Shown: positions 5,848-58,720 of the stretch, in pieces
How the letters are laid out: each line of letters starts with the position of its first letter
Numbering within the stretch: position 1 is the first letter of the stretch
NCBI RefSeq assembly: GCF_004342585.1
Contig: NZ_SLZQ01000004.1
Coordinates: forward strand, 186,001-250,000
Source: Paucimonas lemoignei
GTDB lineage: Bacteria > Pseudomonadota > Gammaproteobacteria > Burkholderiales > Burkholderiaceae_D
Direction: 5' to 3'
DNA length: 64,000 bases
Notes under the pieces: generated by a model
Databases searched by the model: none
What the model was told of the DNA's origin: nothing
The model's input: the letters and a program-made list of their open reading frames with translations, nothing else
Program-made: the position numbers and the translations under genes

Positions 5848-5954
5848 AACCCGGCGTGGATGGCAAGTCGATAGCGCATTCAAGTCGAGGAAAAGTGGCA
5901 AATCGGCAAAGGTGCGATAATGCTCCTCTGCTTCTCACACCCCTTATCTAATCG

Positions 5955-6839
5955 ATGAATCCCGGACTTGCTTATGCCGCCACCGCCTATACGGCATGGG
6001 GCTTGTTCCCCCTGTACTTCAAAGCGCTGCATCACGTGCCGCCTTTGCAAGTCCTGATGCACCGCGTGGTGTGGTCGCTGGCATTTTTAGCCATCGTCTT
6101 GACGACGCGTCGTCATTGGGCATGGCTGGGCCGGGCACTGCGCGACATGAAGGTAGTCGGCGGCTTCGCAGCCAGTGCGCTTTTGCTATCCGTGAACTGG
6201 TTCGTGTATATCTGGGCGGTTGGCGAAGGGCGGGTGGTCGATGCCAGCCTGGGATATTTCATTACGCCGCTCGTCAATGTCATGCTCGGTCTGCTCCTAT
6301 TGAAGGAACGGCTGCGGCCGCTGCAGTGGGGCGCAGTCGGCCTGGCGGCCGCCGGCGTGGCATGGCTGGCTTGGCAAAGCGGCGGCTTGCCCTGGGTCGC
6401 GCTAGTGCTGGCTATGACCTTTGGCTCCTATGGCTTATTGCGCAAGACGGCCGCGCTGGGGGCGATGGAAGGCTTGACGATGGAAACCCTGCTGATGTTT
6501 CCGGTGGCACTTGCTTACCTTGGCTGGCAATACACGAGCGGCAACGACGCCGTCGGCAGCGCCCCCGTGACCGAGCAATTGCTGCTGGCAGCATCCGGGC
6601 CCATCACGGCGATTCCGCTGCTGATGTTCGCCGCCGGCGCGCGCCGCATCCCGATGTCGGTGCTCGGCTTGCTGCAGTACATTGCACCCACCATTCAATT
6701 CCTGCTGGGCGTAGCGCTTTACCATGAACCCTTCAGCGGCGCGCGCCTGGTGGGATTCGCGCTGATCTGGAGCGGCCTGGCGATGTATTCCTGCGAAGGA
6801 CTGTGGCGCAGCTGGACAAGAAGAGCCGCCGTGCCCTGA
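5955..6839 (+). CDS. rarD: EamA-family transporter RarD
   Basis: A 294-residue polytopic protein of the drug/metabolite transporter superfamily with about ten hydrophobic segments in two EamA repeats. The opening AATAYTAWGLFPLYFKAL and the internal SVNWFVYIWAVGEGRVVDAS and SLGYFITPLVNVMLGL are typical RarD signatures; family members are linked to chloramphenicol sensitivity, but the substrate is not firmly known. The length fits the family (about 295). A small inverted repeat, CGGCAA/TTGCCG at 6857-6874, follows the stop. Confidence 0.9.
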   Translation: MNPGLAYAATAYTAWGLFPLYFKALHHVPPLQVLMHRVVWSLAFLAIVLTTRRHWAWLGRALRDMKVVGGFAASALLLSVNWFVYIWAVGEGRVVDASLGYFITPLVNVMLGLLLLKERLRPLQWGAVGLAAAGVAWLAWQSGGLPWVALVLAMTFGSYGLLRKTAALGAMEGLTMETLLMFPVALAYLGWQYTSGNDAVGSAPVTEQLLLAASGPITAIPLLMFAAGARRIPMSVLGLLQYIAPTIQFLLGVALYHEPFSGARLVGFALIWSGLAMYSCEGLWRSWTRRAAVP

Positions 6840-6994
6840 GCCATCCCCAGGTTCAACGGCAACGAGAATTGCCGCCTGATCCGAACACGGGATTAAAGCC
6901 AATCAACTGTCATGCGCTGAGCGCACCGGATTTCATCTCGGGTGACATATCGGGTATGCTTCCACCTTTCCATTGAAGTCATCTGATATCCATA

Positions 6995-8662
6995 ATGGCT
7001 AACTACGTTTACACCATGAATCGCGTGGGCAAGATCGTGCCGCCCAAGCGTCATATTCTTAAAGATATTTCTCTTTCCTTCTTCCCTGGAGCAAAGATCG
7101 GCGTGCTCGGCCTGAATGGTTCGGGCAAATCCACCCTGCTGAAAATCATGGCTGGCATCGACAAGGATATCGAAGGCGAAGCGATCCCGATGCCGGGTCT
7201 GAACATCGGTTACCTGCCGCAGGAGCCGCAGCTCGATCCGGAACAGACCGTGCGCCAGGCCGTGGAGTCGGCCCTTGGCGAAGTGTTCGAGGCGCAAGCC
7301 AAGCTCGACGCCGTGTATGCCGCCTATGCCGAGGAAGACGCCGACTTTGATGCGCTGGCCGCCGAACAGGCACGCCTGGAAGCGATCATTGCCGCAAGCG
7401 ATGGCAATAGCCTGAACCAGCAACTGGAAATGGCAGCCGATGCGCTGCGCCTGCCGCCGTGGGAAGCCAAGATCGGCGTGTTGTCCGGCGGTGAAAAGCG
7501 CCGCGTCGCGCTGTGCCGCCTACTCTTGTCCAAACCCGACATGCTCTTGCTGGACGAGCCGACCAACCACCTGGATGCGGAATCGGTCGACTGGCTGGAG
7601 CAATTCCTGCAGCGCTTCCCCGGCACCGTGGTCGGCATCACCCATGACCGCTACTTCCTCGACAACGCTGCCGAATGGATCCTGGAACTGGACCGCGGCC
7701 ACGGCATTCCCTGGAAAGGCAATTACAGCTCCTGGCTGGAACAAAAGGAAGCGCGCCTGAAGCAGGAAGAAGCCAGCGAAAGCGCGCGTCAGAAGACCAT
7801 CGCCAAGGAATTGGAATGGGTGCGGCAAAACCCCAAGGGTCGCCAAGCCAAGAGCAAGGCACGCCTGGCCCGCTTCAATGAACTCTCCGAATACGATTAC
7901 CAAAAGCGCAACGAGACGCAGGAAATCTTCATTCCGGTCGCCGAGCGCCTGGGTAACGAAGTCATCGAATTCAAGAATGTCTCGAAAGCTTTCGGCGATC
8001 GCCTCTTGATCGACAATCTCTCGTTCAAGATTCCTCCGGGCGCCATCGTCGGCATCATCGGTCCCAACGGTGCCGGTAAATCGACCCTGTTCAAAATGAT
8101 CGCCGGCAAGGAACAACCGGATAGCGGCGAAGTGGTGGTTGGCCCGACCGTGAAGCTGTCGCTGGTGGATCAGTCGCGCGAAGAACTCGATAGCAAGAAA
8201 ACCGTGTGGGAAGACGTGTCGAATGGCGCCGATATCCTGACCGTGGGCCGCTTTGAAATGCCGTCACGCGCTTACCTCGGCCGCTTCAATTTCAAGGGAA
8301 GCGACCAGCAGAAAGTCGTCGGCAACCTGTCGGGCGGTGAACGCGGGCGTCTGCACTTGGCCAAGACCCTGCTCATGGGCGGCAATGTCTTGTTGCTGGA
8401 CGAACCGTCAAACGACCTCGACGTGGAAACCCTGCGCGCGCTGGAAGACGCCTTGCTGGAATTCGCCGGCAGCGTGCTGGTGATTTCGCATGACCGCTGG
8501 TTCCTGGACCGTATCGCCACGCATATCCTGGCGTTCGAAGGCAATTCGCAAGTGACTTTCTTCGACGGTAATTACCAGGAATACGAAGCCGACAAGATCA
8601 AGCGCCTCGGCGAAGAAGCGGCCAAGCCAAAACGCGTGCGTTACAAGCCGGTGACCCGGTAA
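6995..8662 (+). CDS. ettA: Energy-dependent translational throttle protein EttA (ABC-F)
   Basis: A 555-residue soluble ABC-F ATPase with two nucleotide-binding domains and no membrane segments. It binds the ribosomal E site and gates early elongation according to ADP/ATP ratio. Visible motifs are two Walker A loops (GLNGSGKST and GPNGAGKST), two signature loops (LSGGEKRR and LSGGERGR) and Walker B with LLDEPTNHLD and LLDEPSNDLD. The arm and linker region (SAEWILELDRGHGIPWKGNY, KARLARFNEL) is characteristic of EttA rather than of Uup or YheS, as is the N-terminus MANYVYTMNRVGK. The length matches the family (about 555). Confidence 0.95.
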   Translation: MANYVYTMNRVGKIVPPKRHILKDISLSFFPGAKIGVLGLNGSGKSTLLKIMAGIDKDIEGEAIPMPGLNIGYLPQEPQLDPEQTVRQAVESALGEVFEAQAKLDAVYAAYAEEDADFDALAAEQARLEAIIAASDGNSLNQQLEMAADALRLPPWEAKIGVLSGGEKRRVALCRLLLSKPDMLLLDEPTNHLDAESVDWLEQFLQRFPGTVVGITHDRYFLDNAAEWILELDRGHGIPWKGNYSSWLEQKEARLKQEEASESARQKTIAKELEWVRQNPKGRQAKSKARLARFNELSEYDYQKRNETQEIFIPVAERLGNEVIEFKNVSKAFGDRLLIDNLSFKIPPGAIVGIIGPNGAGKSTLFKMIAGKEQPDSGEVVVGPTVKLSLVDQSREELDSKKTVWEDVSNGADILTVGRFEMPSRAYLGRFNFKGSDQQKVVGNLSGGERGRLHLAKTLLMGGNVLLLDEPSNDLDVETLRALEDALLEFAGSVLVISHDRWFLDRIATHILAFEGNSQVTFFDGNYQEYEADKIKRLGEEAAKPKRVRYKPVTR

Positions 8663-16825: not shown

Positions 16826-19282
16826 CTATTGCAGGAAACGCGCCAATTCCGCCGGCCGCACCGCCTGCGTGACATAGTGCCCCTGGAATTCATCACATCC
16901 CTGTTCCCGCAAAAAATCCAACTGCGCCATCGTTTCCACGCCTTCGGCAATCACCTTCAGCTTTAAACTCTTTGCCATGATCAGGATGGCGCGAATGATG
17001 GCGGCATCATTGACATCGTCAGCCAGATCGCGCACGAAGGATTGGTCGATCTTGAGCTTGTCGACGGGGAAGTGCTTCAGGTAACTGAGGCTCGAGTAGC
17101 CCGTGCCAAAATCATCGACCGCCAGCGCCACGCCCATGTCACGCAAGGCGCGCATGGTAGCCATCGTACTGCTGGATGCATCCAGCAATACGCTTTCCGT
17201 AATTTCAAGTTCCAGGTAACGGGGTGGCAAGCCGGTTTGCTCCAGCGTCTTGCGCACCTTTTGCAAAAAGTCCTTTTGCCGGAACTGGATGACCGACAGG
17301 TTGACGCCAACCCGCATGGGCTTGCCCTCGTCATACCAGGCTTTCGCCTGCCGGCACGCATTCTGCAAGACCCAGTCGCCGATCGGGACGATCAATCCGG
17401 ATGCTTCGGCGGCATGCAAGAACCGCGCGGGCGCCAATAAGCCAGCCTCGGGATGCTGCCAGCGCAGCAGGGCTTCCACGCCGATGATCCGGCCGGAACC
17501 GATGTCCAGCTCCGGCTGGTATTCCAGCACGAGTTGGTTCTGATCCAGCGCCACGCGCAACTCGTGCTCCAGCGTCAGCCGCTCGACCATGCGCACATTC
17601 ATGTCGTGATCAAAAAACTGGTAATTGTTGCGGCCGCTTTCCTTGGCATGGTACATCGCCGTGTCGGCATTCTTGATCAGGGTATCGACGTCGTTGCCGT
17701 CGTCCGGATACATGCTGATGCCGACACAGGTGGTGATGGTCAGGGTATGGCTTTCGATATAAAAGGGCATCCCGGTGGCGTGCAGGATATTGCCGGCGAT
17801 ATGCGCCACCTGTCCGCTATCGCCGATATTCGACAGCATGACGACGAATTCATCGCCGCCCTGGCGGCTGACGGTGTCGTTACTGCGCACGCACTTCTTC
17901 AGCCGCTCCGCGAGCGCCTGCAAGAGGTTGTCGCCGATATGGTGGCCGAGCGAATCGTTGATATTCTTGAAGCGGTCCAGATCCAGAAACAGCACCGCGA
18001 GCTTGCCGCGATTGCGCCGCGCGGAAGCGATGGCTTGATGCATCCGGTCCAGCAGCAAGACGCGGTTGGGCAAGCCCGTCAGGAAGTCATGCTCGCTCAG
18101 GTGGCGTATGCGCTCTTCGGCAGCCTTGCGTTCCGAGATATCGGAAAAGATGACGATGTAGTTGACGATGCGCTGGTCGCTGCTGCGCACTGCCGATACC
18201 GAAGCCCATGCAGGAAAGCTTTCGCCATTGCGGCGGCGTCCCCAGATTTCGCCTTGCCAGTGGCCGTGGCGCTGCACGGTTTCCTTGATGCGTTCATAAA
18301 AATCCGGCTCATGCACGTCCGAGCGCAATATATCCCTGCCGCCGCCGGCAATGTCCTGCTCCTGCAATCCGGTCAGCTCGGTGAATGCCGCATTCACGCG
18401 CATCATGCACCACTTCGCATCGAGGATGGCGATCCCTTCGCGGCTGCCTTCGAATACCTGGGCCGAGAGCCGTAATTCATGCTCCGCGCGCTTGCGGTCG
18501 GTGATATCGCGCACGATGGCATACATGAAGGCATCGCTGCTGCCATCCAGCACCGTCAATGTCACCTCGCCCCAGAATGTGCGCTTATCCAGGGTGCAGT
18601 ACTGCCATTCGAAGCGGTGGCTGCCATGCTTGAGCGCAATGGCATGCATTTCTTCCATCTTCTCTTGCGACAGGCGGCCGTCAGGCTGGTACTTCGGCGA
18701 GATCTGGTAGGGGACCGCCCCCTTCAGGCCGTTGGTATCCTGACCATAGCCGAACAGGCGTAGCGCCGCCGGATTGAATTCCTGGATCTGCCCTTCGCGC
18801 ATCATGATGATGGCATCCGCCGACTTGGTGAACAATTCGCGGATGCGGCTTTCCTTGTCCAGCAAGTCACGTTCGCGCTGCTTGCGCTCGGTGATATCGA
18901 TATCGATGCAATAGATGCCTGTGGTCTGCTCACCTTCTCTTATCGGGAACATCGTGGAGCACACCCATACATGGCCGCCCGCAGGCGTAGCGACTTGCAT
19001 ATCGCGCGGCACGGCCGGCTTGCCAGCCTGCCATATGCGCGCCACCTCGTCCTCCCACCCCGGGTGATGGCGGCACGATACCAGGACGTCGCGGATATGC
19101 CGGCCAAGCGCCTCGCTGCGCGAGATGCCATACAGCTTTTCGCTGACATCATTCCAGACACGGATGATGCCGTCGCGGTCGAAACCCTGCACGGCGACAA
19201 GGGGCACCTGGTCGATCGCCTGTGCGAAACGGGTCAGGGCCTCGATCGAATTTGCCTTCTCGTCGCCAGCAAACATAGCCAC
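16826..19282 (-). CDS. PAS-PAS-PAS-GGDEF-EAL c-di-GMP signalling protein
   Basis: 818 residues, no membrane segment. Three PAS modules occupy roughly 15-135, 145-260 and 270-385. GGDEF runs about 390-550 with motif GGDEF at 475-479 and an inhibitory site RSND at 466-469. EAL runs about 565-815, with EALLRW from 603, VDDFGTGYSS and VIAEGVET. Both catalytic halves look intact, so it may be bifunctional, though in such hybrids one activity usually dominates. It starts at a GTG, with an ATG two codons later; GGATGAG precedes. The PAS ligands are unknown. Confidence 0.92.
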   Translation of the reverse strand: MAMFAGDEKANSIEALTRFAQAIDQVPLVAVQGFDRDGIIRVWNDVSEKLYGISRSEALGRHIRDVLVSCRHHPGWEDEVARIWQAGKPAVPRDMQVATPAGGHVWVCSTMFPIREGEQTTGIYCIDIDITERKQRERDLLDKESRIRELFTKSADAIIMMREGQIQEFNPAALRLFGYGQDTNGLKGAVPYQISPKYQPDGRLSQEKMEEMHAIALKHGSHRFEWQYCTLDKRTFWGEVTLTVLDGSSDAFMYAIVRDITDRKRAEHELRLSAQVFEGSREGIAILDAKWCMMRVNAAFTELTGLQEQDIAGGGRDILRSDVHEPDFYERIKETVQRHGHWQGEIWGRRRNGESFPAWASVSAVRSSDQRIVNYIVIFSDISERKAAEERIRHLSEHDFLTGLPNRVLLLDRMHQAIASARRNRGKLAVLFLDLDRFKNINDSLGHHIGDNLLQALAERLKKCVRSNDTVSRQGGDEFVVMLSNIGDSGQVAHIAGNILHATGMPFYIESHTLTITTCVGISMYPDDGNDVDTLIKNADTAMYHAKESGRNNYQFFDHDMNVRMVERLTLEHELRVALDQNQLVLEYQPELDIGSGRIIGVEALLRWQHPEAGLLAPARFLHAAEASGLIVPIGDWVLQNACRQAKAWYDEGKPMRVGVNLSVIQFRQKDFLQKVRKTLEQTGLPPRYLELEITESVLLDASSSTMATMRALRDMGVALAVDDFGTGYSSLSYLKHFPVDKLKIDQSFVRDLADDVNDAAIIRAILIMAKSLKLKVIAEGVETMAQLDFLREQGCDEFQGHYVTQAVRPAELARFLQ

Positions 19283-21369: not shown

Positions 21370-23826
21370 ATGAAAAAAACGCCCTGGCAAGCGCACCAAA
21401 GCATCGGGTTGCTCGTTGCGCTTTTCGGCGCCATCCTGGTGTTTCGCTGGATATTGAACGATGCAACGATCACCCGCCTGATTCCGGGTGCGGCAGCGAT
21501 GGAATTGAATGCGCCATTGCTGTTGCTGACCGCGGGCATTTGCTGCGTTTTTTATCCCGAGCGCGACCACTATGCCGCGCCGCTCAAGATACTCTTGCGC
21601 CTGTGTGGCTGGCTAGTGCTCATTCTGCCGCTGCTGCAGCTGCTTCAGCATCTGTTCGGCATCAATTTGGGCATCAATTTTGTTAGGCTGCCAGTCGTGC
21701 CGACCGAAGGCAGGCCGCATCCGGGCCGGCTATCCCCGCAAGCCGCGCTGGCCTTCCTGAGTGTTGGCAGCGCCCTGTTCCTCCTGCGGCGCAAGCGGGA
21801 CGACATCCGTTACTACCGCATCGTGCTGACGCTGATCCTGGTGCCGATGCTGATCGGCTTAACCGGGCTGGCCGGCCATTTCCTGCAGCTGGAAACCTTC
21901 TACCACCTGCCGAAATATAACCAGATGACCGTGCCGACGGCGCTCGGCATCAGCCTGCTGAGCTACGGCGTGTGGCTGCTGCAGCAAAGCATCCTGAGCC
22001 ACCATCAATTGAAGACGCGCCAGTACTGGGAGCGCGCAACCCGCCGTGCCATTGCGACGCTCGTCATTGTCGCGCTGGCAGGAGGCATTGCGGGTTTTGC
22101 CGTCATGCGGGATGCCTTCGAGGATGCGCTGGCAGAGAGCATTCGGCTGAGCGTCACGTCCAATGTGGCTGCGCTTGGCAATATGCTGGAAAACAAGCTG
22201 GCATTGCATCGCACGATTGGTGCCAATCCAGGCCTTCGCCGCAACCTGATCCAGCTGCAAAAGCAGCCGCATGACAAGGCTGCGCGCGCCTCCGTGGCGG
22301 AACATATCGCTTACCTGTCCGCGGTCGGCCTGGACGGCGTGCGACTGTACGATGCCGGCGGCCGGCTGGTTGCCGCCGCGGGTGGGGCCATGCTGCATGA
22401 CCAAGCAGCGCTGGCCCATCGCCTGAGTCGCGCCGAGCAGACTGCCTACCTGGTGTGGCAGGATGGCTACCTGCTGCACACGGAAAACAAGTTGATCGCA
22501 GAGGGCCACACAGTCGGCACCATCGTGGTCGAACAACGCTTGCCGGATTTCGACAAGTTGCTCCATGACCTGCAGGTCAGCCATGCTTCTGCCGATGCCT
22601 TGCTGTGCAGCCGCGATAACAACGCGGCGATATGCGCGCCAAGCCGACTCACCGATGCGGTTACCAGCATGCCGCTTCCCGGCCCGCCGGGCATCGCGAC
22701 GCCGATCGAGCTGGCGTTGCTGGGCCAGAGCGGCATCGTGACCACCCGGGATGCGCGCCAGAACAGAATCTTTGCCGCCTACGCGCCATTGCAGGAATTC
22801 GGCCTCGGGCTGGTGATAACGATGGATCTCGAAACGCTGTACGCGCCGCTCAGGCAAAAAATCCAGCTGCTCGCAGCAGCGCTGATCATATTGGTGGCAT
22901 TCGGCACCCTGACCCTGCGCCTGGCGGTGCGTCCTCTCCTGCAACGCCTGTCGGACAGCCAGCGGCGCCTGCGCGCCATTACCGACAATGTGCCGGTATT
23001 GATCACCTATATCGATCCGGAATACAAGATCGGCTTTTGCAATCACACCTTTGAGGAATGGTTTGGCACGCCGGCCAGCGACGTACTCGGCAAGCCCGTG
23101 AACGCCGCCATCGGCCCATTTAATTTCGCCCAACGCGAGAAATACATGGAACGGGCACTTGCCGGAGAAAGGGTGGAATTCGAGGTGAGCTCGGACACCA
23201 ATGGCGTCAGGCGCCACTTGCAGAATACTTACGTGCCCGACATCACGAGCGACGGCACGGTGGCCGGCATTTACACCTTGTCCATGGATATAACTGCCGC
23301 AAAGGACGTGCAGCAGCGATTACAGCAAATGGCGCGCTTCGATGCGCTGACCGGCTTGCCGAACCGCTATCTCATGAACGAGAAGCTGCATGAAGCCATC
23401 ATGCGGTGTCATCGGTCGGGCGAGCCGATGGCGATCATGTTCCTGGATGTCGACCATTTCAAGCTGATCAACGATAGCCTTGGCCATGCCGGCGGTGACG
23501 AGGTGCTCAAGGAGTTCGGGCGACGCCTGAAGGCGAGCGTGCGGCAAACCGATACGGCGTGCCGGCTGGCGGGCGATGAATTCGTGATCATCTTTGAAAA
23601 GATCGGCAGCCCGGATGCTGCCGAAACTATCGCCAGCAAAATCATTGCCAATGTCGAGGCGCCCTTCGCAGTAGAAGGCCATCCCGTGCAGATCGGCACC
23701 AGTATCGGCATTGCCTATTGTCAGAATCCGCCCCAGTCGCCGGCATCCCTGATCAGCCAGGCTGACCAGGCGCTCTACGAAGCCAAGGAAGCCGGCCGCG
23801 GCACGTACCGCCTGGTGTGCTGCTGA
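21370..23826 (+). CDS. Membrane diguanylate cyclase: multi-helix N-terminus, periplasmic sensor, PAS, GGDEF
   Basis: 818 residues. About seven hydrophobic helices lie in residues 10-245. A predicted periplasmic Cache- or CHASE-like region spans 250-495 and is closed by a helix near 500-518. A PAS domain (535-645) and a GGDEF domain (655-815) follow. The catalytic motif is AGDEF (734-738) rather than GGDEF; several known AGDEF cyclases are active. The inhibitory site RQTD (725-728) is kept. No EAL domain is present. The combination of a polytopic N-terminus and a separate periplasmic sensor is uncommon. It converges on the Cache-CheW gene with a 13-base gap. Confidence 0.88.
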   Translation: MKKTPWQAHQSIGLLVALFGAILVFRWILNDATITRLIPGAAAMELNAPLLLLTAGICCVFYPERDHYAAPLKILLRLCGWLVLILPLLQLLQHLFGINLGINFVRLPVVPTEGRPHPGRLSPQAALAFLSVGSALFLLRRKRDDIRYYRIVLTLILVPMLIGLTGLAGHFLQLETFYHLPKYNQMTVPTALGISLLSYGVWLLQQSILSHHQLKTRQYWERATRRAIATLVIVALAGGIAGFAVMRDAFEDALAESIRLSVTSNVAALGNMLENKLALHRTIGANPGLRRNLIQLQKQPHDKAARASVAEHIAYLSAVGLDGVRLYDAGGRLVAAAGGAMLHDQAALAHRLSRAEQTAYLVWQDGYLLHTENKLIAEGHTVGTIVVEQRLPDFDKLLHDLQVSHASADALLCSRDNNAAICAPSRLTDAVTSMPLPGPPGIATPIELALLGQSGIVTTRDARQNRIFAAYAPLQEFGLGLVITMDLETLYAPLRQKIQLLAAALIILVAFGTLTLRLAVRPLLQRLSDSQRRLRAITDNVPVLITYIDPEYKIGFCNHTFEEWFGTPASDVLGKPVNAAIGPFNFAQREKYMERALAGERVEFEVSSDTNGVRRHLQNTYVPDITSDGTVAGIYTLSMDITAAKDVQQRLQQMARFDALTGLPNRYLMNEKLHEAIMRCHRSGEPMAIMFLDVDHFKLINDSLGHAGGDEVLKEFGRRLKASVRQTDTACRLAGDEFVIIFEKIGSPDAAETIASKIIANVEAPFAVEGHPVQIGTSIGIAYCQNPPQSPASLISQADQALYEAKEAGRGTYRLVCC

Positions 23827-23839
23827 GGCCTCAATCGCA

Positions 23840-26413
23840 TCATGCCGCCAGGCGCATCTCGAACACCGCCGCGGCATCGGGCAGCAAGGGCGCATTCGGC
23901 GCCAGCGGGTCGCTCAGCACGGCGAACAGGTAATCGATATTGATTACCTGGATCAGCAGGTCGCCGCCATTGGCCTTGATCACCTGGGTGATCAGCATAC
24001 CGCCCGCGCCATTGGCCAGGGGAGTCGCGACGATTTGCGCGGCCTCGAACTCGGGCACGCCGTGCAAGTCTTCCACCAGCAGCCCGATCATCTGGTCGCC
24101 ATGCTTCACGATGATGACCTGACTGGCGGCTTCCATTGGCGAAGGCGTGCCGCGCATCAGGTGGCCGAGATCGTAGACCCAGGCATAGCGCTTTTCTTCC
24201 CCTTGCTGTTCCAGCGAAATGATGCCGACCCGTTCGCTGCGGCCGCCGATCGACACGCGCGAGATGCGCTGCACCGGCAAGGCTTGCTGTGCATGTTCGG
24301 CGTCGATGGCGAACATGGCGCCGTTGACGAAGAAGGTGGCAAATTCATGGCCGCCGCTGCCGGCGTCGACAATGGCCTCCTGCCTGCTCTTTGCCGCGAT
24401 CTGGCGCACTTGGCCAAAATAGGTGAACACCACTGCCAGCACATCATCGACATAGCCATCCGTCTTCTTGAATTCCCGGTAGCCGCTGGATACCGTGCAG
24501 CCCATCACGGCATAGTGGCCATCGTGCTCGACGATGCGCGAAGCGCCGCTGCCGTTGGGAAGTTTGAGCAAGCCCGGATCGATTTCCAGCATGCTGCCGA
24601 CCGGACGCGCCGGATCGGTGCTGGAAATGATGCGCCCCTGCCGATCGATGTAAAAGGCATGGGCTGCCTCCTTGCCTGCCAGGCAGCTTTGCAGCATGGC
24701 GGAAAATTCGATCGTGCTGTCGAACACGAGGCCGATGCCGCCCACCACCATGCCGTCATGGTGCGGATCGCGGATGGCGGCATGATAGATGTACGTCGGT
24801 GCGCCGTCATACAACTGGCTGGAGGAAAATGCGCTGACATGGTAATTCTGCTCGCCGCGCAGGGCTGTCACCTGCGCCAGCGTTTCGGCGTCGAGCATCG
24901 TGCCGACGATTGAAGCATCTCCTTCGCCGTCGCGGCTGCTGGCGATAATCACGCCGTCGCGGTCATACACGAAAATGCGTGTGTAGACGGTGTAAAGCCG
25001 GTTGATGTAATCCAGGATGGCGGTGATCTGCTGCGTCGACTCCAGATCGAGTTCCTGCTCCGCCAGGCGCAGGCGCAATTCCGGCGTCAGCGCCCACCAG
25101 CGGCAATCGTCCGAGCGTTCATACAGGTTGCGGTCCAATAGGTCGACCAGCAAGTGCGAAACGAATTCGGCGTCATTGAGGTTCGAGCCGATGACGGTCT
25201 GGTACAAATCCCGAATCGATTGCGAAAACAGTTCATTGCTGCGGCTGCCGGTTTCGCCGATCTGCTCGAGGATCGTCTTGAGCTTTTGCAGTTCGCCGTG
25301 CTGGCCGGCGGTCATGACCTGGCCATTCCAGACCACGCGCCGGATAGTGTCGGCCGCCGTCATGATCTCGAACAGTGGCGGACAGAACGAGCGCGCATGA
25401 CTCAGCAAGCCTTCCGCGCTGTCGGCGCCGAGATCGTCCAGCGCATGACTAGCCTCGCCGGTAAACGCCACCTCGACCGGTATCATCACCTGGCCCTGCC
25501 ATCCCGGCGGCCCCATGTAACCCTGATAACCGGCGGCGGAAAATGTCCGCACCAGATATTCGCGGCCGCCATAGACCATCAGGCGCGAACTGCCGTCGCG
25601 GTTGACCGGCACCACCGCACCGACATCGATCCAGCTACGGTCGGCGCTGGCAATCACCCGGTTGCCGCCATCCAAGAGCAGCATGTTGAAACGGTCTTCC
25701 TCTTCACGCAGCGAACGGAAGATGCCGGCCATTTCTTCTTCGAAGTTGAAGCACAGGCAAAGCACGCCGACCACTTCGCCTGTCTGCGGATGCAGCATGC
25801 GCTGCGAATAAATCAGCGCCTGCTTCTTGCTCGGACGCAGATCCGTGGCGCGGAAAGTCTGCACATAGCCGGCAGTGCGGAGCGACTGCGCAATCAGCGG
25901 ATCGACGCTGCCTTCGACCGGACTTTCCTCATCGATCTGCACCAGCACATTGCCCTTCGTATCGAGCAGCAGGATTTCGTCGTAGACCGTGTACTTGTTA
26001 CGATAGGCGCGCAAACGGTAGCGAATGGCAGCGACATCGTCGGTGTCGCCGGCGACGAATTCGCAGAGCTTGCGGTCCGTCGCCAGGAAGCCGACGTCGG
26101 CCGTGCGCTCGTACAGGTTGCGCACCACGATATCGATGACATACTGCGCCTTGGCGCCGATCTTGGCCAGCACGGTCGCCACTTTCTCGCGCACCAGGCT
26201 GGTCACGAGCTCCTGCTCCAGGCGATTGAAGCCCTCGCGGGTCGCGGCCATGGTCGGCAGGATCGCCTTAGCCTCGTTCGGACAATTCATTTTCGCCGAG
26301 GCCTCGATCATGCGCCACATCAGGTTCAGCTCATGCAGCGACTGCTCGCAACGGGTCACGTCGCGCATATAAGGGAGAAAGTTATCGATCTGCAAGGGCG
26401 TGCTCTTATCCAT
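23840..26413 (-). CDS. Soluble double-Cache-like protein with C-terminal CheW-like domain
   Basis: 857 residues. Two regions resemble Cache sensor modules: about 75-300 (YTVYDEILLLDTKGNVLVQID) and about 420-640 (YTVYTRIFVYDRDGVIIASS). Each follows a similar preamble (DIVVRNLYERTADVGFLATD and DLLDRNLYERSDDCRWWALT), suggesting internal duplication. Residues about 685-835 resemble CheW (FATFFVNGAMFAIDAEHAQQ, VIIVKHGDQMIGLLVEDLHG), the adaptor that joins receptors to CheA. No signal peptide or membrane helix is visible, so the Cache modules appear cytoplasmic. Its ATG lies just inside the end of the upstream GGDEF-EAL gene (8-base overlap), so they should be co-translated. The role as a sensor-adaptor is inference. 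Confidence 0.8.
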   Translation of the reverse strand: MDKSTPLQIDNFLPYMRDVTRCEQSLHELNLMWRMIEASAKMNCPNEAKAILPTMAATREGFNRLEQELVTSLVREKVATVLAKIGAKAQYVIDIVVRNLYERTADVGFLATDRKLCEFVAGDTDDVAAIRYRLRAYRNKYTVYDEILLLDTKGNVLVQIDEESPVEGSVDPLIAQSLRTAGYVQTFRATDLRPSKKQALIYSQRMLHPQTGEVVGVLCLCFNFEEEMAGIFRSLREEEDRFNMLLLDGGNRVIASADRSWIDVGAVVPVNRDGSSRLMVYGGREYLVRTFSAAGYQGYMGPPGWQGQVMIPVEVAFTGEASHALDDLGADSAEGLLSHARSFCPPLFEIMTAADTIRRVVWNGQVMTAGQHGELQKLKTILEQIGETGSRSNELFSQSIRDLYQTVIGSNLNDAEFVSHLLVDLLDRNLYERSDDCRWWALTPELRLRLAEQELDLESTQQITAILDYINRLYTVYTRIFVYDRDGVIIASSRDGEGDASIVGTMLDAETLAQVTALRGEQNYHVSAFSSSQLYDGAPTYIYHAAIRDPHHDGMVVGGIGLVFDSTIEFSAMLQSCLAGKEAAHAFYIDRQGRIISSTDPARPVGSMLEIDPGLLKLPNGSGASRIVEHDGHYAVMGCTVSSGYREFKKTDGYVDDVLAVVFTYFGQVRQIAAKSRQEAIVDAGSGGHEFATFFVNGAMFAIDAEHAQQALPVQRISRVSIGGRSERVGIISLEQQGEEKRYAWVYDLGHLMRGTPSPMEAASQVIIVKHGDQMIGLLVEDLHGVPEFEAAQIVATPLANGAGGMLITQVIKANGGDLLIQVINIDYLFAVLSDPLAPNAPLLPDAAAVFEMRLAA

Positions 26414-28751
26414 GATGCGATCTCGATGCTAATAAATTGTGTATGGCGGCATGGCTGCCGATCAGCTCATTCAAGGGCAGCGGCTTGCTCAGCAGGTAGC
26501 CTTGCAGGTAGGTGCAGCCGAACTGGGTCAGATACAGCAGTTGCGCATCGTTTTCGATGCCTTCGGCCACCACGTCGAGCTTCATATGCCGTCCCAGGTC
26601 GAGGATGGAGCGCACGATGGCGCCGTCACCACGGTCGTCCGGCAGGCCGGCGACGAACAAGCGGTCGATCTTCATTGAAGTAATGGGCAGTTTTTTGAGG
26701 CGCGACAGCGAGGAATGGCCGATGCCGAAATCATCCAGGCTGATCTGGAAACCCAGCTGCCGCAGCATTTGCATGACCGGCACGACTTTTTCCGGCTGCT
26801 TCATGACCATGCCTTCGGTCAGCTCCAGGCAGACATGGCGCGAGGCGATGCCGCTGGCGGCCACGACGTCGGCGAGCTCATACGGCAACCGCAGATTGAT
26901 GAATTCCGGCGCCGCCATGTTGACGTTGACGCGCAGTTCGGGAAAACCGGCGCGGTGCATGACGCCCAGATCGCGGCAAGCCTGGCGCACGACCCAGCGG
27001 CCGATCTGTACAATCAAGCGGCTCTTTTCGGCAATCGGAATAAAGCTCCCCGGCAGCACCAGCTCGCCGCCCGGCTTGCGCCAGCGCAGCAAGGCTTCCA
27101 CGGCGACGATCCGGTTGCCATAAAAGTCGAACACCGGCTGGTATTCGAGGAAGAATTCATTCTGCGCCAGCGCCCGATGCAGTTCCGCTTCCATGGTCAA
27201 TTGCTGCGCCAGCGAAGTCTGTTGCTGGGCGATCAGGCGCGTGCCGCTCTCGGAGCAGAAACAATAGGCGTTGCGCCCGGCCTTCTTGCTGCGATACATG
27301 GCTTCATCCGCGCTGCGCAACAGTTCCTGCGGGGTCCAACCATTCTCGCCGAATACGCTGATGCCGACGCTGGCGGATACTTTCAACTCCTGGCCTTCGA
27401 ATAGCGATGGCGTGCCAGCGGCATGCAGCACGTGTTCCGCCAGGTCCGACAAGGAAGCATTCACCGCCGCGCCGTCGGCACTATCCAGGGGCGCCAGAAT
27501 GGCAAACTCATCGCCGCCCAGCCTGCCGATGCGCACGCCTTTTCGGGCCAGCGGCTGCAGGCGCCTGGCAAAGTCGCGCAACACCAGATTGCCCGCATCA
27601 TGGCCGAAGGCATCGTTGATCGGCTTGAAGCGATCCAGGTCGATATACAGCAGGCCGAACAGCTTGCCGGTACGGCCTGCCTCCTCGCTCATTTCGCCGA
27701 GGAGCTGATGGAAATAACTGCGGTTGGCGAGTCCGGTGAGGTCATCCGTCTGCGCCAGCTGGCGCATCAAGTCTTGCTGCTCCATGCGCTGCACCGCCTG
27801 GGCGATCAGGCCGCCGATGACCGCCGACAGGTTGGGCAATTGGGCATCGTGCTGGCGGGTCAGCGTGCTGAAGAACTCCAGCACGCCGACATTGTGCCGC
27901 TGGCCGTCCGCCGCGACATAGGAAACCGGAAAGGCATAGCCTGACTCCAGCCCGCATTCGCGCGCCGCGTCGCGCCGCAGGAAGCTGTGGTCGCTTTTCA
28001 TGTCCTCGATCCAGCCTGCCTGCCCGGTGCTCCAGACATGGCCGACGAAGCCTTCGCTGGGCGCCATCCGTACGCGCGCACTCGCGTTGTCGAATTCTGC
28101 CAGCGCATAGTCGGAGTGGCTCCAGTGGTACTGGCAAACCAGTTGCGCCGACTCGTACGGCCCTTGCTGGATCTTGCGCATTTGCCAATAGGCTCCCCAC
28201 TCCCAGCCGAGGTTTTCGCATACCAGCTGGATTACCTTCGGCACCGCCTCATCCAGCGAATCGGCGCCGACCAGCGACTGCGTCATGGCATAGCTGAAGC
28301 GTTCGCGCATTTCCACGTGCTTGGCCGCAGTAACATCCACCACGACGCCGGCATGCATGCCCGGCGTTGCGCCTGCCGCCGGCACCGATTGCATCCGCAG
28401 CCAGCGCAAGCCGCGCGTCCCCTGCAGCACGCGGAACTGGTAATCGATCAGCACGCCCGGCAGCTTGGCTTGCATGAGTGCCGTGGTGAGCTGGAGCATG
28501 TCTTCGGGCACGACATTGGTAAAACACTCTTCCAGCGACCTGTGCAGGCCGGGATCGACTTCGAGGAATTGCGCCGCGCCATGCGACAGGATGAGTTGTT
28601 CCTCGCGCAGATCAAACCACCAGCGACCAAAGCCGGCAACGGTTTCCATGGCATCCGGATAGGCGAGCTCGGCCAGCACGGGTACGGCAGCATGCGGGAC
28701 TGAAGCCGAAGTCGGCACCAGGGCTTGTAGCGGCGGCAGTTTGGAATTCAT
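26406..28751 (-). CDS. PAS-GAF-GGDEF-EAL c-di-GMP signalling protein
   Basis: 781 residues, soluble. A PAS-like region (35-145), a GAF domain (165-320), GGDEF (330-500, motif GGDEF at 412-416) and EAL (515-775, EALLRW from 552) are visible. No RxxD inhibitory site precedes GGDEF. In EAL, the usual DDFGTGYSS is changed to DDFGIGHSS in loop 6, while the metal-binding Asp pair and VVAEGIEN remain, so phosphodiesterase activity is plausible. Its stop overlaps the start of the Cache-CheW gene. The first Met has no strong ribosome site. Confidence 0.9.
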   Translation of the reverse strand: MNSKLPPLQALVPTSASVPHAAVPVLAELAYPDAMETVAGFGRWWFDLREEQLILSHGAAQFLEVDPGLHRSLEECFTNVVPEDMLQLTTALMQAKLPGVLIDYQFRVLQGTRGLRWLRMQSVPAAGATPGMHAGVVVDVTAAKHVEMRERFSYAMTQSLVGADSLDEAVPKVIQLVCENLGWEWGAYWQMRKIQQGPYESAQLVCQYHWSHSDYALAEFDNASARVRMAPSEGFVGHVWSTGQAGWIEDMKSDHSFLRRDAARECGLESGYAFPVSYVAADGQRHNVGVLEFFSTLTRQHDAQLPNLSAVIGGLIAQAVQRMEQQDLMRQLAQTDDLTGLANRSYFHQLLGEMSEEAGRTGKLFGLLYIDLDRFKPINDAFGHDAGNLVLRDFARRLQPLARKGVRIGRLGGDEFAILAPLDSADGAAVNASLSDLAEHVLHAAGTPSLFEGQELKVSASVGISVFGENGWTPQELLRSADEAMYRSKKAGRNAYCFCSESGTRLIAQQQTSLAQQLTMEAELHRALAQNEFFLEYQPVFDFYGNRIVAVEALLRWRKPGGELVLPGSFIPIAEKSRLIVQIGRWVVRQACRDLGVMHRAGFPELRVNVNMAAPEFINLRLPYELADVVAASGIASRHVCLELTEGMVMKQPEKVVPVMQMLRQLGFQISLDDFGIGHSSLSRLKKLPITSMKIDRLFVAGLPDDRGDGAIVRSILDLGRHMKLDVVAEGIENDAQLLYLTQFGCTYLQGYLLSKPLPLNELIGSHAAIHNLLASRSHHG

Positions 28752-31331: not shown

Positions 31332-31499
31332 AAAATCCAGAGCTTATTTACCTTTTCTAACCTTTTCTCGATTTCCTTCGGAAAACAAACCGGTACAATG
31401 ATTCGGTAATCGAGGGAATGTTGGCAATAAAATAACAATCATATGCCGCTTTCCCAAGCGCATGGCTTTGTCATGCTCAATCTGGAGAGACCGAGGCAA

Positions 31500-32990
31500 A
31501 TGAATTTGGCAAACGTGACAATTCGCACCCGGCTGCGCATCGGGTTCGGTATCCTGCTGGCTTTTTTGGTCGGCATGACCTTGCTGGCATTATCGACCGC
31601 TGCACCTGATGCCAGCCGCACAGTCATCATCGCGAGCGGTGCTGGCATGCTTGTGGTCGGCATGCTGTGCGCATGGTGGATCGGCCGCAGCATCAGCGGC
31701 CCGCTGCAGGAAGCCATCGCAGTCAGCAAGCGCATGGCGGCAGGCGACATCAGCGAACCGATCAGCGCACGCGGTCAGGGCGAATTGCTGGAACTGCAGC
31801 AAGCGCTGCAGGAAATCAGCGAGCGCATGTTCGAGATCGTCTCCAAGGTCCGTTCCGGCACCACCGCTGTGGCGACTTCCGCCGGATTCATCAATGGCGA
31901 CAATACCGCCCTGTCCGGACGCACCGAAGCGCAGGCCAGCTCGCTGGAAGAGACGGCGTCGTCGATGGAAGAACTGACTTCGACCGTGCGCCAGAATGCC
32001 GACAATGCCCGCCAGGCCAACCAACTGGTGTCGCACGCTGCCGAATCCGCCGTCAAGGGCGGCCAAGTGGTCGATAACGTCGTGGCCACCATGGGGTCGA
32101 TCAAGGAAAGCTCGCGCAAGATCGTCGACATCATTTCCGTCATCGATGGCATCGCTTTTCAAACCAATATTCTCGCCTTGAATGCAGCGGTGGAAGCAGC
32201 GCGCGCCGGCGAGCAGGGACGCGGCTTTGCCGTGGTGGCGGCGGAAGTGCGCACGCTGGCACAGCGCTCGGCTTCGGCGGCCAAGGAAATCAAGACGCTG
32301 ATCGGCGACTCGGTCAGCAAGGTCGATGCCGGCAGCCATCAGGTTGACGAAGCTGGCGACGCCATGAAGGATATTGTCTCCAGCGTCAAGCGCGTGGAAG
32401 ACATCATGAGCGAGATTGCCGCCGCCAGCGCCGAGCAGAGCAGCGGTATCGAGGAAATCAACAAGGCAGTCATGCAGATCGATGGCATGACGCAGCAAAA
32501 TGCCAACCTGGTCGAGCAGGCAGCCAAGACCGTGGTCACCCTGCAGGATCAGGCGGTACGCCTCAGCGAGGCCGTCTCAGTTTTCAACCTGGGCGAACGG
32601 GAATTCGGCAATGCTGAAGATGCTCGGGCGCTGGTCGAGCGCGGCTGCGAAATCCTGCGCAACTATGGCAAGCAAGCCTTCTTTGATGAAGTCTGCGACC
32701 CGACCGGCCAGCTGATCGACCGTGATCTGTACTTGTCGGCCTGCGACAACACCGACAAAATCGTCATACATGGCGCTTTCCCGCGCCTGGTGGGCACAGA
32801 CGGCAAGGTCATCAAAGACCCCGATGGCAAGTATTTCGTCATGGAGATGCTGCGAATCGGCCGCACTCAGGGCAATGGCTGGGTAGATTACAAGTTCATT
32901 GATCCGATGACCAAGAAAACCATGGACAAGACTGCTTACATTGGCACGGTCGGCGATATCGTCATGTCGTGCGGGTTCTACAAACGTTAA
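31500..32990 (+). CDS. Methyl-accepting chemotaxis protein with C-terminal cytoplasmic Cache domain
   Basis: 496 residues. Two membrane helices (about 12-32 and 42-62) are joined by only about 10 periplasmic residues, so there is no periplasmic sensor. HAMP follows (IGRSISGPLQEAIAVSKRMA). The signalling domain carries the conserved hairpin tip EQGRGFAVVAAEVRTLAQRS around residues 235-260. After the signalling helices comes a single Cache-like domain (about 380-495: KQAFFDEVCDPTGQLIDRDL, then VMEMLRIGRTQGNGWVDYKF), therefore cytoplasmic. The ATG at 31500 is preceded by GAGG; an in-frame ATG 57 bases earlier is possible. Methylation-site candidates lie in the Gln/Glu-rich helices. The ligand may be internal. 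Confidence 0.88.
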   Translation: MNLANVTIRTRLRIGFGILLAFLVGMTLLALSTAAPDASRTVIIASGAGMLVVGMLCAWWIGRSISGPLQEAIAVSKRMAAGDISEPISARGQGELLELQQALQEISERMFEIVSKVRSGTTAVATSAGFINGDNTALSGRTEAQASSLEETASSMEELTSTVRQNADNARQANQLVSHAAESAVKGGQVVDNVVATMGSIKESSRKIVDIISVIDGIAFQTNILALNAAVEAARAGEQGRGFAVVAAEVRTLAQRSASAAKEIKTLIGDSVSKVDAGSHQVDEAGDAMKDIVSSVKRVEDIMSEIAAASAEQSSGIEEINKAVMQIDGMTQQNANLVEQAAKTVVTLQDQAVRLSEAVSVFNLGEREFGNAEDARALVERGCEILRNYGKQAFFDEVCDPTGQLIDRDLYLSACDNTDKIVIHGAFPRLVGTDGKVIKDPDGKYFVMEMLRIGRTQGNGWVDYKFIDPMTKKTMDKTAYIGTVGDIVMSCGFYKR

Positions 32991-56365: not shown

Positions 56366-58720
56366 CTACGCTGATTTCACCACGCTGAAAGGAATAGCCC
56401 GGGCCGGACGCCGCTCGAACAGCTTTTCGCATTCGGCGGCGGTGACAGGCTTGTTGAAGTAATACCCCTGGCCGATGCCGCAGCCATGCCGCGCCAAAAA
56501 CTCCTGCTGCTCGGCTGTCTCGATTCCTTCGGCCACCACGCCGATCTGCAACTGCCCCGCCATCGCCAGGATCGCCGTGACGATGGCGGCGTTATGCGTG
56601 TCGATGTGCACATCGCGCACGAAGGAGCGGTCGATCTTCAGGATATCGATGGGGAACTGGCGCAGGTACGACAGCGATGAATAGCCAGTGCCGAAATCGT
56701 CGATCGAGATCGTCACGCCCAGATCGCGGATCTGTTTCAGGCGTGCCGCGCTGTTGACCGGATCTTCCATGACGATGCTCTCGGTCAGTTCCAGTTCGAG
56801 CAAGTGCGGGTCCAGCCCGGTGCTTTCCAGGCATTGCGCGATCTTGCTCACCAGCGTCGGATCCTTGAACTGCCTTGCCGACACGTTGACCGACACGCCG
56901 ATCGGTTCGGCTCCACGGCTTTGCCAATCCTGCGCCTGGCGGCAGGCTTCCTGCATCACCCAGTCGCCGATCGGCACGATCAGGCCCGACATTTCCGCCA
57001 CCGGAATGAATTTCAGCGGCGCGATCATGCCCTGGCCGGGGCGGTTCCAGCGGATCAGCGCTTCGACGCCGACGATGGCATTGGTCTGCAAGTCATGCTG
57101 CGGCTGGTAATGCAAAATGAACTCGCCATTGTCGAGCGCGTGCCGCAACTGGTTTTCCAGGTTCAGGTTCTCGCGGGCCAGAGCGCTCATTTCGGCGGCA
57201 TAGAAAGCAAAACCATTGCCGCCGGCTTTCTTGGCCTGGTACATCGCCGTTTCGGCGCGCAGGATCAATTGCTCGGGCGTGTCGCCATCGTCCGGGTAGG
57301 TGCCGATGCCGATGCTGGGCGTGAGATAGAGTTCCTCGCCTTCGATCGTGAAGGCTTGCTCGAAGCAGCGTTGCAGCTTCAATGCCGTGCGCGCCAGGTC
57401 TTGCGAATCCTTCACATACGGCAGCATGATCAGGAATTCATCGCTGCCGGGGCGGGCAATGATGTCCTCGGCGCGCAGGTTTTGCTTCAGGCGCTCGGCC
57501 ACGGCGCAGATCAGCTCGTCGCCGGCGGCATGGCCAAGGCTGTCGTTGATGCCCTTGAATCGGTCCAGGTCGAACATCATCAAGCCGAGCTTGAACTTCT
57601 GGCGGCGCGCCAGCGACATCGACTGGCGCAGGCTTTCCAGCAGCTGGCTGCGGTTGGGCAGGCCGGTCAGGCCATCGTGCTGCGCCAGGTAGCGCACCTT
57701 GTCCTCGGCGGCGCGCTGGTCGGTGATGTCGCGCAGCGCCGCCAGCCGCACGCGGCGGCCCTCGTAATCGAAATCGCGCGATTGCACCACAAGCGGCACC
57801 TCGCGCCCGCGGACATCGGCCAAGGTGACATCATAGGTTTCATCGCGATGCGAGCGCAGCATCTTGTCCAGGCGGGCACGATGCGCGGGAATGACGAAAT
57901 CGAGCGGCGAGCGCCCTACCAGGGCATCGACGGAAATACCTACCATGCGTGCAAATGCCTGGTTGGCGTTGATGATGACACCGTTTTCGTGGAACACCAG
58001 GCCTTCGCTGGCAACCGCCGCCAGGTGTTCGAAGCGAGCCTGGCTGGCGCGCGCGGTGGTGGTCGATTGCAGGGCGGCCTGTTCGGCTGCCTGGCGGATC
58101 GCCACTTCTTCCTGCAGCGACGCCACCAGCTCTTCATTATCGAATTGCACGCGCAAGGCTGCGCGCAGGGTGCGCGCCAGTCGCGTCGACGTCACCAGCA
58201 TCAGGATCAGGAATACTGCCGCCATCACCGTCAGCTCGTGGCTGATCATGGTGGAACCGGCCAGGATGCCCCATGCCAGCATGGGCGCCGCCACGCAGGT
58301 CGCGAATATCCGGTACACCTGCGGCACAACCGAAAACATGGGCAGTGCGGCCGCGCTGATGCCCAGCGCCAGCACCGTCAGCGCAAGCCGGAACTCCAGT
58401 GGCAGGTATGCCGAAAACAGGATCGGGCAAAGCCCCCAGCACAATCCCGACAAGGCTGTGATGGCGGTAAATGCATCGGCCCAGCGCTTATATTGGCTCT
58501 CGCATCCGGCGACGCGTTTGCGCTTGCTGTGCATGCCGAGGAAAATTCCGGCCGCCAGAACGGTGATGCCTAGCCAACTCAACAGCAGCCACAGCGGAAC
58601 CGTGGACGACACTGCCGCAGCAACCATCAGCGCGGTAGCTGCCGAAGCCAGCGCCGCGCCTTTGGATTGCTGATATAGCAGGTCGACCTGCCGGGACAGC
58701 AGGCGGTTCTCCATCTCCAC
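56366..58720 (-). CDS. Membrane-bound PAS-GGDEF-EAL protein with variant GSDEF motif
   Basis: 784 residues. Four to five membrane helices span about 22-180 (TALMVAAAVSSTVPLWLLLS, LTVLALGISAAALPMFSV). PAS (about 225-335), GGDEF (345-505) and EAL (515-775, EALIRW from 553) follow. The cyclase motif is GSDEF at 425-429: the second Gly of GGDEF is Ser, which often abolishes synthesis, while the RAED inhibitory-site motif at 416-419 remains. EAL motifs (DDFGTGYSS, VVAEGIET) look intact, so it is probably a phosphodiesterase with a regulatory GGDEF domain. The start may be GTG at 58720 or an ATG two codons later. Confidence 0.88.
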   Translation of the reverse strand: MEMENRLLSRQVDLLYQQSKGAALASAATALMVAAAVSSTVPLWLLLSWLGITVLAAGIFLGMHSKRKRVAGCESQYKRWADAFTAITALSGLCWGLCPILFSAYLPLEFRLALTVLALGISAAALPMFSVVPQVYRIFATCVAAPMLAWGILAGSTMISHELTVMAAVFLILMLVTSTRLARTLRAALRVQFDNEELVASLQEEVAIRQAAEQAALQSTTTARASQARFEHLAAVASEGLVFHENGVIINANQAFARMVGISVDALVGRSPLDFVIPAHRARLDKMLRSHRDETYDVTLADVRGREVPLVVQSRDFDYEGRRVRLAALRDITDQRAAEDKVRYLAQHDGLTGLPNRSQLLESLRQSMSLARRQKFKLGLMMFDLDRFKGINDSLGHAAGDELICAVAERLKQNLRAEDIIARPGSDEFLIMLPYVKDSQDLARTALKLQRCFEQAFTIEGEELYLTPSIGIGTYPDDGDTPEQLILRAETAMYQAKKAGGNGFAFYAAEMSALARENLNLENQLRHALDNGEFILHYQPQHDLQTNAIVGVEALIRWNRPGQGMIAPLKFIPVAEMSGLIVPIGDWVMQEACRQAQDWQSRGAEPIGVSVNVSARQFKDPTLVSKIAQCLESTGLDPHLLELELTESIVMEDPVNSAARLKQIRDLGVTISIDDFGTGYSSLSYLRQFPIDILKIDRSFVRDVHIDTHNAAIVTAILAMAGQLQIGVVAEGIETAEQQEFLARHGCGIGQGYYFNKPVTAAECEKLFERRPARAIPFSVVKSA

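Follow-up and report, generated by a model that had tools for sequence, protein, structure and literature searches.

A soluble tandem dCache-CheW protein as a candidate cytosolic sensor for chemosensory arrays, with an optional GGDEF-EAL partner

We analysed a 64,000-nucleotide stretch of the Paucimonas lemoignei genome (contig NZ_SLZQ01000004.1, positions 186,001 to 250,000; hereafter the window), in which two overlapping genes lie on the minus strand. The downstream gene (23840..26413) encodes a soluble protein of 857 residues, here called CCW, in which a helical hairpin and a double-Cache (dCache) module occur twice and are followed by a CheW domain. The upstream gene (26406..28751) encodes a GGDEF-EAL enzyme of 781 residues, here called GE. 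We favour, with moderate confidence, a role for CCW as a cytosolic ligand sensor that docks on chemosensory arrays, with the array of the flagellar CheA as the likeliest target and GE as an optional partner. Because CCW combines Cache and CheW folds, is soluble, is conserved as a unit, and comes with FliG in all 40 of the CCW genomes tested, we think it best explained as a cytosolic sensor that feeds a chemosensory array.

Architecture and fold of CCW

The domain order of CCW was established from the open reading frame, Pfam, an AlphaFold2 model and a fold search. The model was built from 69 sequences and has a mean predicted local distance difference test score (pLDDT) of 80.5 and a predicted TM-score of 0.69. 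The chain opens with a conserved helical hairpin (hairpin 1, residues 1-111, 26081..26413) whose helices span residues 17-43 and 52-111, followed by dCache module 1 (residues 112-316, 25466..26080). Hairpin 2 (residues 345-441, 25091..25381; helices 345-368 and 374-441) precedes dCache module 2 (residues 444-668, 24410..25084), which has a DctB-like fold, and the CheW domain (residues 689-834, 23912..24349) closes the chain; all of these coordinates are on the minus strand. The two hairpins are modelled with lower pLDDT, at about 57-86 and 60-77 per ten-residue block, and within hairpin 2 the triplet W362-N363-G364 is invariant in the columns of an 89-sequence alignment.

We compared the model with structures in the PDB using Foldseek and VIA-align. 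Residues 410-666 match DctB sensor structures (3e4p: Z 18.0, root-mean-square deviation (rmsd) 2.5, 216 residues) and residues 74-321 match KinD sensor structures (4jgp: Z 14.2), so each of the modules is a full dCache. Citrate-sensor Cache domains match part of each module at Z 14-15 (6lnp over residues 94-230: Z 14.4). At the C-terminus, residues 687-835 match CheW structures (2ch4_W: Z 16.7, rmsd 2.4, 137 of 139 residues; 6s1k_C: Z 16.5). Pfam places CheW (PF01584) at residues 691-830 (E 2.7e-12; 46.9 bits against a cut-off of 23.5) and dCache_1 (PF02743) on two stretches, the better of which, 452-599, scores narrowly above its cut-off (46.9 bits against 45). No NCBIfam family and no PF00015 match, the latter being the signalling tip of methyl-accepting chemotaxis proteins (MCPs), was found in CCW at E up to 1, and a phmmer search of the PDB returned no sequence relative (best E 0.44). 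By Pfam and fold, CCW is a CheW domain fused to a sensor domain without a kinase domain, as in CheWS-type proteins.

These results bear on a first-pass annotation of the same DNA, which had been made from the letters alone and had proposed structure prediction as a check. The CheW-like C-terminus that it described is confirmed, and the predicted Cache and CheW folds are both matched in the model. It had also described two similar Cache-like modules, each behind an RNLYER preamble. The two modules are indeed related and RNLYER occurs twice, at residues 98 and 428, in each case near the end of the long helix that starts the dCache. A similar motif, RNLFER, occurs in a distant genome in a protein with a hydrophobic N-terminus and a che-like neighbourhood (read by eye); RNLYER is therefore probably part of a Cache subtype, and a separate preamble is unlikely.

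The nearest folds to the CCW modules are sensors of carboxylates or amino acids. The rank of the fold matches (DctB, CitA) is our only basis for a guess that the ligands are carboxylate-like.

CCW is predicted to be cytosolic

Hydropathy analysis gave no membrane helix, hydrophobic N-terminus or signal in CCW, as the first-pass annotation had stated. The maximum 19-residue hydropathy is 1.47, within a Cache strand, compared with 2.3-2.4 in two membrane proteins of the window. Across the 89 homologues the maximum is 1.9, and this segment too is a Cache strand in the model. We rejected export of CCW, given the absence of a hydrophobic N-terminus and a membrane helix. The extracytoplasmic placement that is usual for dCache sensors is thus not seen in CCW. 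Such placement is usual but not universal: 78% of Cache domains are extracytoplasmic, and the families of intracellular Cache that are known are small (PMC4822843).

A patchy family with a constant architecture

CCW belongs to a patchy, mainly betaproteobacterial family whose architecture is constant. Our search with one genome per species yielded 100 confirmed CCW loci, of which 80 were kept. The gene is carried by 11 of 60 relatives and 18 of 100 relatives, and by 6 of 398 genomes drawn across the phylum (E up to 1e-30). Matches to the second dCache in the 100 relatives all fall within CCW-sized frames of 854-990 residues, among the matches listed. Alignments extend to residue 800 or beyond, into the CheW domain, in 97 of 100 distinct homologues, and one of the three shorter ones stops at a contig end; the search for the same domain order that had been suggested earlier thus recovered the full architecture in 97 of 100. 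The alignment of 89 sequences, which includes the window and excludes four loci with short or broken matches, spans identities to the window protein from 87% down to 35%, and the CheW domain is still present in members that are about 35% identical.

Association with flagella and chemosensory systems

FliG is present in 78 of the 100 relatives, namely in all 18 that carry CCW and in 60 of the 82 that do not (one-sided Fisher p 0.007, a value that ignores relatedness in a set of related genomes among which flagella are common). A second collection of CCW genomes gave the same result (24 of 24); as 2 of these also belong to the first collection, FliG is present in 40 of 40, and other overlap between the collections is possible. 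No FliG match was found in G002, a genome of the same genus as the window that is 99% complete and carries GE without CCW. CheW domains were listed for 14 CCW genomes, and all 14 have one in a frame of 675-876 residues, the length of a flagellar-type CheA. In 11 of them a short CheW lies no more than 3 kb from this frame; in G491, G492 and G494 the frame shares a contig with FliG, about 23 kb away at most. CheW domains are confined to one CheA, one CheW, a CheV-sized protein and CCW in G491 (Tepidimonas) and in G489, a Thiobacillus metagenome-assembled genome (MAG) that is possibly incomplete, the classes of CheA and CheW being assigned by the length and position of the frames and not by phylogeny.

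The number of CheA-type systems in these genomes bears on whether CCW might serve another chemosensory system, Wsp-like or of the type IV pilus Chp kind, instead of the flagellar one. The source genome would allow this, since it has four CheA-type frames, one of them in a Wsp-like cluster and one of ChpA size. Yet a ChpA-size frame (1639-2015 residues) occurs in only 8 of the 14 listed CCW genomes, neither such a frame nor a second one of CheA size was found in G491 or the possibly incomplete G489, and FliG is present in all of the CCW genomes tested. We regard service to another system as quite unlikely.

Two chemosensory loci of the source genome may be noted in passing. The Wsp-like cluster (contig C2, 195000-214000) holds two CheWs, a CheR-like gene, an MCP, a CheA and a CheB, named by eye and from CheW matches, and ends in a gene for a 937-residue REC-GAF-PAS-GGDEF-EAL protein. 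On contig C14 (9000-21000), a gene for a 621-residue CheA stands directly behind a CheZ gene (5887-8492 of that segment), and no further chemotaxis gene is evident in the 12 kb. We also considered the number of CheW matches per genome as a correlate of CCW, as the 18 of 60 relatives with four or fewer matches lack CCW (0/11, p 0.012, among the matches listed). This was dropped since G487, G488, G489 and G491 carry CCW although their matches, CCW itself counted, number just 4 or 5.

Several observations weigh against a sensor seated in the flagellar array, beginning with the relatedness that the Fisher test ignores. G001, of the same genus as the window and 87% complete, has FliG and no CCW. 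CCW genes do not, as a rule, lie beside che genes. When we searched 100 distinct loci with the MCP, CheA, CheV and CheW of the source genome as queries, an MCP match outside CCW was found within about 6 kb in only 9, one of which (L070) also has a CheW match, and no CheA match was found near CCW (median 6 kb on each side). Membership of the flagellar sigma-28 regulon is likewise not upheld: the 100 stretches upstream of CCW show no excess of sigma-28-like promoters, with a mean score of 9.67 against 9.59 for random stretches of the same loci, as judged by the E. coli consensus, which may differ in these bacteria. The CheW domain itself is the least conserved part of the protein: mean identity to the window protein over 88 homologues is 49% there, against 58% in dCache module 2, 69% in module 1 and 82% in the second helix of hairpin 1. 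Finally, two positions that are conserved in canonical CheW are altered in the window protein. We counted these in the 89 aligned sequences, window included. At the Arg62 position 13 of 89 sequences have Arg, and the window protein has Glu; at the Glu38 position 80 of 89 have Glu, and the window protein has Gln. Arg lies within 3 columns of the Arg62 position in 34 of 89, and misalignment at a nearby insert is possible, so the 76 of 89 without Arg are an upper bound. At three of the nine loci with an MCP match (L088, L149 and L156), the MCP gene is just 200-600 bases away from CCW.

The Glu38-Arg62 pair of the canonical coupling protein is therefore not kept in CCW. Because the Arg62 position is mostly not Arg, CCW is more likely a modulator beside a true CheW than a replacement for it, and from its sequence we judge it probably not to be a core coupling protein. 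A more radical possibility is that the domain no longer docks in the manner of CheW, and either inhibits or competes by contacting receptor tips alone, as FrzB may, or makes some other contact. The substitutions at Arg62, the insert beside this position and the low conservation of the domain would fit, as would two published cases: the R62A mutant of E. coli CheW is reported to keep binding while chemotaxis is impaired (PMC3828127), and FrzB is described as a divergent CheW without CheA binding (PMC6952110). Against this, the model keeps the CheW fold (Z 16-17), the domain is retained in the most diverged members, Glu38 is kept in most sequences, and other CheW domains of the same genome, two in the Wsp-like cluster and one in the ChpA-size CheA, likewise lack Arg62. 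We consider loss of CheW-like docking unlikely. In a tree of CheW domains, those of CCW do not group with flagellar, Wsp-like or Chp CheWs.

We therefore retain a cytosolic sensor with an array-docking CheW domain as the favoured reading. The two dCache modules, each of which ends a long helical hairpin, are predicted to bind small intracellular molecules. The ligand signal would pass from the dCaches via the helices to the CheW domain, which would dock on chemoreceptor arrays; its likeliest seat is the array of the flagellar CheA. Ligand binding would then alter kinase activity or array composition without a membrane receptor.

GE is a recurrent but optional partner

GE contains GAF (164-320), GGDEF (333-494) and EAL (522-757) domains by Pfam and, by hydropathy, no membrane helix. 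Residues about 41-139 adopt a PAS-like fold in a model of the N-terminal part (pLDDT 78.8, from 7 sequences), and Pfam gives no PAS match here. Foldseek ranked phytochrome PAS-GAF structures best for this part, at low TM-score; we do not claim a chromophore. The GGDEF and EAL motifs are intact. When GE is aligned to MorA (4rnh; E 2.4e-91), the signature residues of an EAL domain are kept, at the positions EAL, N, E, DDFG, K, E and Q. These features make GE a probable phosphodiesterase of cyclic di-GMP (c-di-GMP).

The stop codon of GE (TAA) and the start codon of CCW (ATG) overlap by 8 bases on the minus strand (26406..26413), exactly as first described, and translational coupling of the two genes is possible. 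We sought GE beside CCW in 104 loci (100 distinct), of which 96 have at least 2.6 kb of upstream sequence. For 11 of the 100 distinct homologues, GE is the gene immediately upstream of CCW, in the same orientation. These are the homologues of the window, of two genomes of the same genus, of three Rugamonas, of a Rhodoferax MAG, of two other MAGs and of G457, together with the second copy in Noviherbaspirillum malthae. The gaps are -8, 11, -4, 13 (L032), -4, 32, 271, 11, 11, 11 and 49 or 64 bases, so that 10 of the 11 fall between -8 and +64. On the CCW family tree the paired state is scattered and requires at least 8 changes, so pairs have often been made or broken; the tree was built with FastTree, which gave long-branch warnings, and we draw on it for this scatter alone.

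GE orthologues, defined by at least 40% identity (a cut chosen after seeing the list; matches of 39% and less were excluded), occur in 7 of the 100 relatives. Four adjoin CCW, one is unlinked to it, and two are in genomes without CCW, one of which (G014) is 80% complete. Orthologues accordingly occur in 5 of 18 relatives with CCW and 2 of 82 without (p 0.002). Within the genus, CCW in G005 adjoins the same upstream neighbours with no GE in between, and in G002 GE is present and CCW absent. The pairing is thus real, recurrent and optional, and we rejected a fixed partnership.

The first-pass annotation had proposed an internal metabolite sensor that plugs into a chemosensory array while controlling c-di-GMP. 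The sensor and array part of this proposal remains the best reading; the fixed c-di-GMP device did not survive the check on conservation of the gene pair, given that GE is upstream in so few homologues and that each gene stands alone within the genus. In its strongest form the proposal would have CCW act mainly as a metabolite sensor that controls the co-encoded enzyme as one device. The overlap in the window, the recurrence of the same upstream gene at close spacing, the co-occurrence of the orthologues and the published example of a phosphodiesterase that binds and depends on CheA (PMC3861689) are all in keeping with a dedicated pair. Such a pair is nonetheless hard to reconcile with the 89 of 100 homologues that have no GE upstream (a few may have been missed, as 8 of 104 loci have less than 2.6 kb upstream), with the absence of a GE orthologue from 13 of 18 CCW-bearing relatives, or with G005, G002 and the less complete G014, each of which has one gene without the other. 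We regard it as distinctly improbable.

For the favoured sensor with an optional partner, we suggest that the window and the 10 other loci probably co-produce CCW and a soluble GGDEF-EAL enzyme with apparently active motifs. In our reading two motility functions are co-expressed, and the enzyme is perhaps recruited to the array. Where present, GE would probably lower c-di-GMP and so favour swimming.

Other c-di-GMP genes also lie near CCW. Using similarity to the GGDEF-EAL half of GE, we found another GGDEF or EAL gene less than 3 kb from CCW in 19 of 104 loci (18 without a duplicate), mostly in Methylotenera-like and Thiobacillus-like clades. In those genomes a different GGDEF-EAL gene is divergent from or convergent with CCW, upstream in L036, L037, L038, L039 and L042 and downstream in L053, L064, L067, L069, L071, L091 and L093; both of those tested (L036 and L053) encode PAS-PAS-GGDEF-EAL proteins. 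We do not count these neighbours as evidence because they come from few lineages and because GGDEF matches number 17-69 per genome in 22 CCW genomes.

Origin of the sensor unit

In CCW a hairpin-dCache unit is repeated in tandem, and CheW follows. Modules 1 and 2 are related by BLASTP (E 3e-10) and by profile-profile comparison (E 2.4e-24 over 297 columns); the latter value is for the whole unit, and hairpin 1 is colinear with hairpin 2 inside this alignment. When the hairpins are compared alone, the similarity is E 0.0026 with a probability of 11.5%.

Profiles of the two dCache units also match 27 (profile A5) and 30 (profile A6) further genomes of the phylum, beyond the 6 with CCW. The matched frames are 319-460 residues long, save three of the A6 ones at 749-1291. 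In all 6 of the short frames tested, an MCP signalling tip (PF00015, E 7e-11 to 1.1e-21) is followed by one RNLYER dCache, whose dCache_1 scores are below threshold (26-34 bits against a cut-off of 45). Among plasmid-borne short relatives, 4 of 9 matches are annotated as methyl-accepting chemotaxis proteins. Short soluble chemoreceptors of this kind, of about 345 residues, occur in many Pseudomonadota (for example L190:1333-2361, L202:1183-2223 and L210:1303-2331), with Methylobacterium, Burkholderia and Caballeronia plasmids among the carriers. Like CCW they carry the homologous dCache unit behind a helical hairpin; they differ in having a single unit, an intact MCP tip and no CheW match. Against an alignment of 11 of them, CCW unit 2 matches at E 2.2e-32 over 301 columns, and the alignment of unit 1 starts only at residue 88. 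From the homology of these proteins to the CCW unit we conclude that the sensor unit belongs to cytosolic chemotaxis.

Hairpin 1 occupies the position that the MCP signalling tip has in the short relatives. The hairpins are not plain MCP tips, since they lack a PF00015 match and, taken alone, show no significant similarity to the MCP-tip relatives (E 0.5 and 0.44). That they are former MCP tips is plausible but unproven; the colinear alignment of the whole unit is the only support for this idea. CCW probably arose by duplication of a hairpin-dCache unit akin to the short soluble chemoreceptors, with CheW added. The series from hairpin-dCache in a short receptor to the same unit twice plus CheW suggests a route from receptor to adaptor.

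A bolder version of this origin, which we offer only tentatively and think doubtful as a whole, would make CCW a receptor and adaptor in one soluble chain. It would consist of two short cytosolic chemoreceptors whose tips have decayed to private hairpins, with the fused CheW making the array contact. Intracellular carboxylate-like metabolites would then gate the flagellar CheA without a membrane receptor, and GE, where present, would put a phosphodiesterase at the array.

Relation to known systems

Chemotaxis arrays are usually thought to sense the outside of the cell through membrane receptors. If the favoured reading is true, CCW would give bacteria a route from internal metabolism to swimming, outside the spirochetes in which the sensor-CheW principle was shown.

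That principle is already known. CheWS of Treponema denticola is reported to be a sensor of S-adenosylmethionine (SAM) that is anchored to arrays by its CheW domain (PMC10653840). Like CCW, it joins a ligand-binding domain to CheW in a soluble protein, and it has been proposed to let arrays read the cell interior; unlike CCW, its sensor is a CheR-like SAM-binding domain, not Cache, it has no tandem sensors, and it belongs to another phylum. The same source names CheWS, CheW-CZB and CheW with PAS as sensor-CheW fusions, and mentions 30 undescribed CheW architectures, 12 of them with other signal-input domains (PMC10653840). Our searches of open-access papers, supplements excluded, turned up none that describes a Cache-CheW fusion, and Fig. 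S10 of PMC10653840 may draw one. To the known principle the present analysis adds the mostly non-Arg residue at the Arg62 position and the sharing of the sensor unit with short soluble chemoreceptors.

Other systems resemble CCW in part. CheV (CheW-REC) also combines a CheW domain with an added signalling domain, which is a receiver and not a ligand sensor; CheV-sized frames stand beside CCW in several genomes. The dCache chemoreceptors and kinases, represented by the sensor structures of DctB, KinD and PctA, share the dCache fold. Those sensors are extracytoplasmic and signal via a membrane helix, whereas CCW has two dCaches and no membrane helix. ParP and FrzB, like CCW, are array proteins with a CheW-related or CheW-like-binding domain that are not the core coupling protein; no sensor domain is named for either. 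For GE, the closest parallel is the Pch phosphodiesterase of P. aeruginosa (PA5017), which is also tied to the chemotaxis machinery. Pch differs in that it needs CheA itself, and no Cache-CheW protein is described with it (PMC3861689).

CCW represents a conserved soluble family that joins two sensor modules of an extracellular type to an adaptor domain; each of the 40 CCW genomes tested has FliG. Where the gene shares an operon with that of a probable c-di-GMP phosphodiesterase, a connection between chemotaxis and c-di-GMP can be tested directly.

Neighbouring genes in the window

About 5 kb from CCW, an MCP of 515 residues is encoded at 31443-32987 (plus strand), with HAMP, a signalling domain and sCache_2 at residues 422-500. 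Because the sCache_2 sits behind the signalling domain, this second Cache is probably on the cytosolic side. The source genome has 60 GGDEF matches in 4.2 Mb, and four genes with a GGDEF motif lie in the window, at 16826-19282, 21370-23826, 26406-28751 (GE) and 56366-58720, of which the second and third were run against Pfam. The gene at 21370-23826 is convergent with CCW, with 13 bases between them.

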